From NCBI GenBank assembly GCA_001797815.1, contig MGQK01000080.1, positions 22,907 through 44,933 on the forward strand: a DNA stretch of 22,027 nt, written 5' to 3'. Below the pieces are notes generated by a model. The model was not told the origin of the DNA. It searched no databases and was given only the letters and a program-made list of their open reading frames with translations. Both the position numbers and the translations under genes were made by a program. The first letter of the stretch is position 1, and each line of letters begins with the position of its first letter. Positions 8,400-20,356 of the stretch are shown here, piece by piece. The stretch is from Deltaproteobacteria bacterium RBG_13_61_14. GTDB lineage: Bacteria > RBG-13-61-14.

Positions 8400-8430
8400 G
8401 CGGGCCACGGGTTTCAAACCCGTGGCCCGC
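8400..8430. repeat. Perfect 15-bp-stem palindrome after the capsid gene
   Basis: A 31-base perfect inverted repeat with one central base; arms GCGGGCCACGGGTTT and AAACCCGTGGCCCGC. It lies between the capsid gene stop and the glycosyltransferase ribosome binding site, and could slow 3' exonucleases or attenuate transcription after the capsid gene. The GGTTT/AAACC core is shared with the element at 10680-10702. Confidence 0.9.
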
Positions 8431-9432: not shown

Positions 9433-9452
9433 AATCCTTATCTCCTTCGTGG

Positions 9453-9472
9453 TGCGGGTGCCCTCACCCGCA
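9453..9472. repeat. Short palindrome upstream of the capsid gene
   Basis: Perfect arms TGCGGGTG and CACCCGCA around a four-base loop, 20 bases upstream of the capsid start codon. Same arm type as 5210-5229 and 19311-19338. Confidence 0.75.
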
Positions 9473-9481
9473 GATAGCTTG

Positions 9482-9505
9482 TGCCACCGGTCTGTAACCG
9501 GTGCC
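9482..9505. repeat. Short imperfect palindrome beside the cement gene stop
   Basis: ACCGGT twice around a five-base loop with partly pairing flanks (GTGCC on the left, GCC on the right). It forms, with 9453-9472, a pair of hairpins in the 75-base gap between the cement and capsid genes. Confidence 0.6.
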
Positions 9506-9507
9506 CA

Positions 9508-9940: not shown

Positions 9941-10879
9941 CTAATTTTCCTTGGGGATCAAGGGATTCCTTTGCCAAGGTTGGGAAAGATGCTGGTCCGA
10001 TTCGGGCGGAACCGGAAAACTTCTCTGGGAGGAGGGGACACCATCCGAATGGTGTCCCTCCTCCAAATGCTTCTGCACTTGCTCTTCCACCAACTTGGCA
10101 ATTTGCTCCGAGACTCCAGAGGGGACACCATCCGAATGGTGTCCCCAGTCCGTTGGCTGCTTCAATTGGGCAAGCTCCGCCTCCAACTCCTGAATGCGCT
10201 GGTCCCGCTGCTGGAGCTGGTTCTCCAGGTGTTGCATTTTCTTTTCGGAGGGGACACCATTCGGATGGTGTCCCCCCTCCACCGGTTCGAACTCCTGAAC
10301 CACCGCCAGCAGGCCGGCGCCCGGAAAACCCGGCGAAGCAAAAGCCCGCGAGCCCAGAGCCAGGCCCGTGACCCGGCGCACCGCTTCCACCAGCCAGCTC
10401 TCGGCCTTCCGCCGCCGCGAAAATTCCAGCTCGGCCTCGATGCTGCACGTGTCCAGCTCGCCGGAGCGAATCCGCTCGCGGGCCTCTGGGTCCGCGATGT
10501 AAGCCACGCCCAGGGCATGGAGCCGGCCCTTTAGCCGGCGCACGGTCGCGGCCACGATCTCGCCGACCTTTCTCCGGGGCGAGTTGTCCGCATTGTGGAA
10601 GAGATAGACCGGCGCCTGCGCCAGGTGCCGCGCCAGCTCGCGGATGCGCTCGGCGCTCCAGCGCTTCTTGGTGCCTCGTGGCACATGTTTAAAACCTGTG
10701 CCCCTAGACAAAATTCGGCCTCGGCTTTCGCCTTCATGACCGGCGGTGAGCGCCACGAAGCAGGGATGGGGATCATGGGCCTTGATCGCCTGATAACGCT
10801 CCTCCCCGATCAGCGCTCTCACTTCGTCCCGCGCCATCTCTTGCACCGGCGCGCACAGATAAACTTTCTCCGAATTCAC
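9941..10879 (-). CDS. Prohead protease-scaffold fusion, with four palindromic insertions
   Basis: 312 residues starting at GTG 10879, whose start overlaps the portal stop (GTGA). Residues 1-190 look like a prohead serine protease (S78-like): VYLFHNADN with His95, and GELDTCSIEAELEF with Ser146, are the candidate catalytic pair, followed by VTGLALGSRAFASPGFPGA. Residues 212-241 are a coiled coil (QHLENQLQQRDQRIQELEAE) and the rest is a low-complexity, proline/glutamine-rich tail, as in scaffold domains. The coding sequence is interrupted by palindromic elements encoding residues 59-70, 203-211, 246-254 and 275-283. The last three read GHHPNGVPS or GHHSDGVPS. All keep the frame and lie outside the putative catalytic segments, in the leader region and around the coiled coil. 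Confidence 0.7.
   Translation of the reverse strand: MNSEKVYLCAPVQEMARDEVRALIGEERYQAIKAHDPHPCFVALTAGHEGESRGRILSRGTGFKHVPRGTKKRWSAERIRELARHLAQAPVYLFHNADNSPRRKVGEIVAATVRRLKGRLHALGVAYIADPEARERIRSGELDTCSIEAELEFSRRRKAESWLVEAVRRVTGLALGSRAFASPGFPGAGLLAVVQEFEPVEGGHHPNGVPSEKKMQHLENQLQQRDQRIQELEAELAQLKQPTDWGHHSDGVPSGVSEQIAKLVEEQVQKHLEEGHHSDGVPSSQRSFPVPPESDQHLSQPWQRNPLIPKEN
10028..10064. repeat. In-frame palindromic element, copy 3
   Basis: Core at 10035-10058 with arms GGGACACCAT and ATGGTGTCCC around CCGA; GGAGGA and TCCTCC extend the stem with one bulged base. Translated on the minus strand as GHHSDGVPS within the protease-scaffold gene. Confidence 0.9.
10121..10146. repeat. In-frame palindromic element, copy 2
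   Basis: Perfect 11-base arms GGGGACACCAT and ATGGTGTCCCC around CCGA. Same family and the same reading frame as 10028-10064 and 10247-10280; encodes GHHSDGVPS. Confidence 0.9.
10247..10280. repeat. In-frame palindromic element, copy 1
   Basis: Core 10251-10274 with arms GGGACACCAT and ATGGTGTCCC around TCGG, flanked by GGAG and CCCTCC. Encodes GHHPNGVPS on the minus strand, directly before the coiled coil. The loop is the reverse complement of that in the other two copies, that is, this copy is inserted in the opposite orientation. Confidence 0.9.
10680..10702. repeat. In-frame palindromic element of a second family
   Basis: GGCACATGTTT pairs with AAACCTGTGCC with one mismatch. With flanking bases it encodes RGTGFKHVPRGT (residues 59-70) in the protease-scaffold gene. 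The GGCAC..GGTTT plan resembles the intergenic hairpins at 8400-8430 and 9482-9505. Confidence 0.75.
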
Positions 10880-20293: not shown

Positions 20294-20356
20294 GTAGGGG
20301 CGCAATTCATTGCGCCCCCGGTCGGAGAGGCAGGGCGCGATAAATCGCGCCCCTAC
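20294..20356. repeat. Composite palindrome: two hairpins within an outer inverted repeat
   Basis: GGGGCGCAAT-TC-ATTGCGCCCC (20297-20318) and GGGCGCGAT-AA-ATCGCGCCC (20333-20352) are two separate hairpins. The outer ends GTAGGGGCGC and GCGCCCCTAC are also inverted copies, so the whole 63 bp can fold as two hairpins or one long stem. Confidence 0.85.

Follow-up and report, generated by a model that had tools for sequence, protein, structure and literature searches.

The small dispersed repeats (SDRs) of Nostoc, 21-27 nt in length, resemble the element described here in size, in forming hairpins with compensatory changes and in their presumed mobility, although Nostoc is unrelated to the host of our element; to our knowledge, in-frame invasion of genes is not a described hallmark of SDRs. 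Examples of such invasion by selfish palindromes have so far come chiefly from Rickettsia and a small number of REP-rich bacteria. The Rickettsia palindromic elements (RPEs) are about 150 bp long as first reported (PMC10969869), and the GTAG/CGTC REPs are small palindromes that are mainly intergenic, sometimes lie in frame in ORFs and can supply stop codons (PMC3733652). TIRYTs are transposases flanked by terminal inverted repeats with the shared motif GGGGWSAS (Di Nocera et al., PMC3733652). Here we describe a much smaller element that invades genes in an uncultured lineage, with its presumed intergenic parent and a transposase seemingly in the same genome.

In the window, that is, the whole stretch of 22,027 nucleotides that was analysed, three palindromes (24-26 nt perfect; GGGGACACCAT-4 nt-ATGGTGTCCCC) lie in frame in the gene at 9941-10879 on the minus strand, as the first-pass annotation had observed, and one shared frame of the 312-aa ORF reads all of them as GHHSDGVP or GHHPNGVP. 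The copy toward the 5' side of the gene (10250-10275, arms of 11 nt, plus strand GGGGACACCATTCGGATGGTGTCCCC) is read as GHHPNGVP and the middle copy (10121-10146, arms of 11 nt, GGGGACACCATCCGAATGGTGTCCCC) as WGHHSDGVP. The copy toward the 3' side (10034-10059) is read as EGHHSDGVP, and its outermost pair is broken (G/T), leaving a perfect part at 10035-10058 with arms of 10 nt and a loop of 4. The copy at 10250-10275 is reversed and the inversion alters the 4-base loop alone, which bears out the earlier remark that one copy has the opposite orientation and nearly the same peptide. The accompanying claim that the element has no stop codon in any of the six frames holds for the TCGG loop of the window and fails for TCAG/CTGA, the commonest loop of the family, which puts TGA in one frame. 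A palindrome of a second family (GGCACAGGTT-3-AACCTGTGCC type) lies in frame in the same gene at 10680-10702 and is read as GTGFKHVP; this stretch (residues 61-69) is shorter by about 5 aa in the same-order protease homologues. The second family occupies 12 places in the source genome, with a further copy in frame at C68:22182. All four palindrome-coded peptides fall where pLDDT is below 50, as it is over 43% of the protein.

The host gene encodes a phage prohead protease/scaffold-like protein, as indicated by the ORF, its homologues and the predicted fold. Pfam and PHROGs searches with the 312-aa protein gave no match, and its identity is drawn from gene order and the fold search. The gene stands between a gene in a portal-like position (phrog_27684, unknown function) and genes for head decoration (phrog_122) and a probable capsid (phrog_24071, unknown function). 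A BFVD fold search with the predicted protein, modelled by AlphaFold with low overall confidence (mean pLDDT 58.7), found phage prohead proteases (best E 3.4e-8), and the top PDB fold match was T4 gp21, a weak one (E 0.004). The original label of phage protease-scaffold gene is thus sound. Relatives with 36-46% identity occur in G001, G002, a delta-proteobacterial MAG and a viral contig, and the NPLIP end is conserved among them. His38 (DPHP) and Ser146 (DTCSIEAE) are also conserved among the homologues, and these residues would presumably suit a prohead-type protease.

The family was sought in the source genome (4.74 Mb, 132 contigs, 95% complete) by pattern searches and in chosen stretches of the genome, with the reversed pattern as a control. 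Fourteen places matched with at most three mismatches and none matched the control; a relaxed pattern likewise gave 14 copies, none of them with more than one arm mismatch, and beyond these a single chance site with three mismatches. Chance is therefore excluded for the palindromes, and the possibility that they occur nowhere else in the genome, which would have told against a mobile family, is set aside. No degenerate copies of the 26-nt element were found in the source genome. The family consensus is GGGGACA[C/G]CAT-NNNN-ATG[G/C]TGTCCCC (26 nt), and four copies form a covarying subfamily (GGGGACAGCAT/ATGCTGTCCCC). Across the family the arms are held almost constant, with changes at 4 of 308 positions, three of them at the outermost base, and the loop varies, with changes at 8 of 56 (Fisher p 6e-5). 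As single-stranded DNA, the 26-nt unit folds into a full hairpin (-12.4 kcal/mol). The flanks of the copies differ from one another and carry no constant tag; A/T occupies 20 of 25 flank bases in a hand count, a figure biased by the limit of palindrome extension itself. At G000:C81:185421-185467 (L012), a 21-nt tandem duplication has placed half a mini-palindrome ahead of a complete one.

Coding calls were made with a codon model trained on the examined loci, together with homology. Nine of the 14 mini-palindromes lie inside six unrelated genes, and the reading frame is open in every case. Besides the three copies in the protease gene, coding copies were found in genes for a PfkB kinase (C42), a BatA/vWA protein (C60), two TPR membrane proteins (C45 and C105, one copy each) and a sigma-70-region-4-like HTH protein (C65), the last holding two copies in two different frames. 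The CTGA loop of the C21 copy gives the TGA stop codon of a histidine kinase, the C113 copy lies just ahead of the start of a penicillin-binding-like gene, the C67 copy overlaps or precedes a start, and two copies at C81 are intergenic. In the protease gene, the codon model alone supports read-through at one copy; the other two are read through as well, since the frame runs on to the conserved NPLIP C-terminus downstream. Each of the three frames is represented among the coding copies, with GHH/GQH in seven, GTP at C42 and the GDT type (WDTIPMVSP) in one C65 copy. The GHH frame is preferred (p 0.008 by copies; p 0.045 with the protease copies counted once).

Relative to 17 homologues, nearly all of one length at the insert, the PfkB gene shows a net gain of 6 aa, and the BatA/vWA gene shows a net gain of 5 aa relative to two same-order homologues (G001/G002); the C45 and C105 inserts do not align unambiguously. 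In the protease alignment, all three mini-palindrome peptides are absent from the homologues, none of which carries the same nonapeptides with non-palindromic codons. The alignment proposed in the first-pass annotation thus established that GHHxxGVP is missing from the homologues; the nearest homologues, just 36-57% identical, offer no exact empty site from which to read an insertion point or the inserted length. No target-site duplication was found at the mini-palindrome copies. Since a clean 26-nt insertion shifts the frame, every surviving copy needs a compensating gain or loss. The net gains of 5-6 aa are smaller than the 9 aa expected from clean insertion, which suggests imprecise integration or later trimming.

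In its behaviour the mini-element resembles Rickettsia palindromic elements and intragenic REPs, but it belongs to neither group, as its size and tags do not fit. Both it and the RPEs are palindromic repeats that lie in frame in many unrelated genes (here nine copies in six genes, with homologues lacking the insert), add a peptide and leave the gene open, and in both cases multiple families occur within one genome. In contrast to RPEs, the mini-element is a near-perfect hairpin of 26 nt with a 4-nt loop, and it is set apart from them by their described size and host; the parallel with RPEs that had been drawn from the window thus stands for in-frame gene invasion and falls for length, 26 nt against about 150 bp. 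With GTAG/CGTC REPs it shares the placement of small palindromes in frame inside ORFs and the supply of a stop codon. Neither a GTAG nor a CGTC tag was found at one end, the copies are not predominantly extragenic (9/14 coding), and membership was rejected because the flanks lack a constant tag. The proposal of a new family of protein-invading mini-palindromes is upheld by 11 more copies, by five other unrelated genes invaded in frame and by homologues without the peptide; the family is new as a sequence, whereas its kind is already known from RPEs and intragenic REPs (PMC3733652, PMC10969869).

The source genome contains 19 Y1_Tnp (IS200-like) matches. At C46 the Y1_Tnp domain is uninterrupted, and inverted copies of GGGGACANCATACTTAATTC stand on both sides of the transposase; the full transposase-linked repeat type, GGGGACACCATACTTAATTC, is the candidate parent. 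The arms of the mini-palindrome are identical to the first 11 nt of the GGGGACANCATACTTAATTC repeat, with the same C/G alternative at the variable base, and every copy carries GGGGACAC or GGGGACAG, in agreement with GGGGWSAS, on at least one arm. The GGGGACANCATACTTAATTC repeat occurs at about 75 places genome-wide, some of them inverted pairs of 49-59 nt. The 54-nt pairs (REPINs) at C4 and C82, GGGGACACCAT-ACTTAAT-TCAGATG-...-GTGTCCCC, include ATTCAGATG, which corresponds to the commonest mini-element loop with its flanks (9-nt match) and arises in about 0.5% of interior shuffles. In addition, two internal deletions bounded by short direct repeats (AT, ATG) would turn a 54-nt inverted pair into the 26-mer. 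The likeness to TIRYT/REPIN systems (PMC3733652, PMC3116915) thus lies in the GGGGWSAS repeat start, in a Y1 transposase of the same genome with the full repeat at both ends, and in the inverted pairs. Unlike these repeats, the mini-element has no inner ACTTAATTC half, a part that the transposase may need; it is self-complementary via its terminal 11 nt, and it is found in genes. The full repeats, by contrast, lie almost entirely in non-coding DNA: this holds for 48 of the 50 GGGGACANCATACTTAATTC sites examined, with one further site touching a gene and another in frame. This sole coding case, at C22 (L121 1261-1314), is a 54-nt inverted pair of the terminal repeat in frame in a gene (RGTPYLIPHDSKQLSMVSP). 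A related repeat adjoins a 59% identical transposase in another genome (G033, L138), and the full repeat was absent from the viral contigs scanned. Another Y1 transposase of the source genome, 48% identical to that of C46, is flanked at G000:C40 (L032 1241-1267 and 1975-2007) by self-complementary palindromes with GGGACAG or CTGTCCC.

In our view, the three palindromes probably represent a non-autonomous, dispersed hairpin element of 26 nt that descends from a TIRYT/REPIN repeat and tolerates coding DNA. The dispersal of copies into genes is well supported; descent from the TIRYT repeat is moderately supported by the sequence comparison and is the best lead. As for the mobilising enzyme and the insertion chemistry, we infer that the mini-element would be a minimal relic of the paired, REPIN-like terminal inverted repeat of the C46 Y1/IS200-like transposase and would have spread as a single-stranded hairpin, perhaps with this transposase acting in trans and with imprecise integration. 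Selection would then have removed insertions that shifted the frame or hit structured parts, leaving survivors in flexible loops and mostly in the hydrophilic GHHSDGVP frame; the inserted peptide itself is probably without function. More specifically, and only tentatively, a REPIN-type repeat could have been reduced to nothing but its terminal hairpin, 26 nt with arms of 11 nt and a 4-nt loop, and reached coding DNA through loss of its stop-bearing inner part, giving in-frame inserts of about nine codons. Hairpin-templated correction or recognition by the transposase would keep the arms perfect in this scenario, which is possible rather than likely. If true, this hairpin would be among the smallest mobile elements known, stop-codon loss could open coding DNA to a mobile repeat, and short insert peptides would have a route into proteins. 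Parent repeat, paired form and coding-compatible mini-hairpin make up a testable series.

Alternatively, the copies could form a dispersed family of hairpins that has no relation to the TIRYT repeat and was spread via hairpin-DNA capture at breaks, template switching or a different enzyme, with the shared GGGGACACCAT a coincidence or a convergence on the GGGGACA motif. Such a family would fit the transposase loci, since no mini-palindrome lies beside any of the 19 Y1_Tnp matches, whereas the full GGGGACANCATACTTAATTC repeat does flank the transposase gene at C46; a direct mini-palindrome-transposase linkage was rejected on this ground. It would also fit a distribution unlike that of the REP-like repeats (coding share 9/14 vs 1/50), the presence of the second, unrelated palindrome family likewise in frame in genes, and the lack of length intermediates between 26 and 54 nt, none of which was found except a 47-nt local duplication at C81. 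However, eleven terminal nucleotides and the same C/G alternative are common to both repeats, and the 9-nt match in the 54-nt REPINs runs across the loop, and we regard an unrelated origin as unlikely. If derivation from the paired repeat is right, the missing intermediates imply that it happened once and that the product then spread.

A functional DNA or RNA site tolerated in genes, such as a protein-binding palindrome, an RNA hairpin or a translational pause element, would account for arms that are near perfect and covary (CAC/GTG and CAG/CTG) while the loop drifts. As RNA, the 26-nt unit also folds into a strong hairpin (-19.9 kcal/mol). Such a site is nevertheless very unlikely, given just 14 copies with an inconsistent position relative to genes, and given that the strict 26-mer was found in 0 of 385 other genomes, two same-order relatives included; a scan of viral contigs for the mini-palindrome also gave 0. 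As the first-pass annotation had alternatively suggested, GHHSDGVPS could be a peptide module with a function in the prohead protease, repeated around its scaffold coiled coil. This would explain three copies in one gene and one frame with nearly the same peptide, but is hardly credible and was rejected, since the protease homologues lack the peptide, the arms show no synonymous drift and the same DNA recurs in five other, unrelated genes, in other frames at C42 and C65, at gene ends and outside genes.

Further palindromes were observed in the window. A 31-nt perfect palindrome at 8400-8430, GCGGGCCACGGGTTTCAAACCCGTGGCCCGC, lies between phage-like genes and is related to the second family. Two more intergenic hairpins, GGTGCGGGTGCCCTCACCCGCA and GCCACCGGTCTGTAACCGGTGCC, are located at 9449-9507, and the GGTGCGGGTGCCCTCACCCGCA hairpin is similar to those adjoining Y1_Tnp genes at C71 and C130. 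At 20296-20356, a canonical GTAG-tagged REP pair, GTAGGGGCGCAATTCATTGCGCCCC ... GGGCGCGATAAATCGCGCCCCTAC, occupies an intergenic position.
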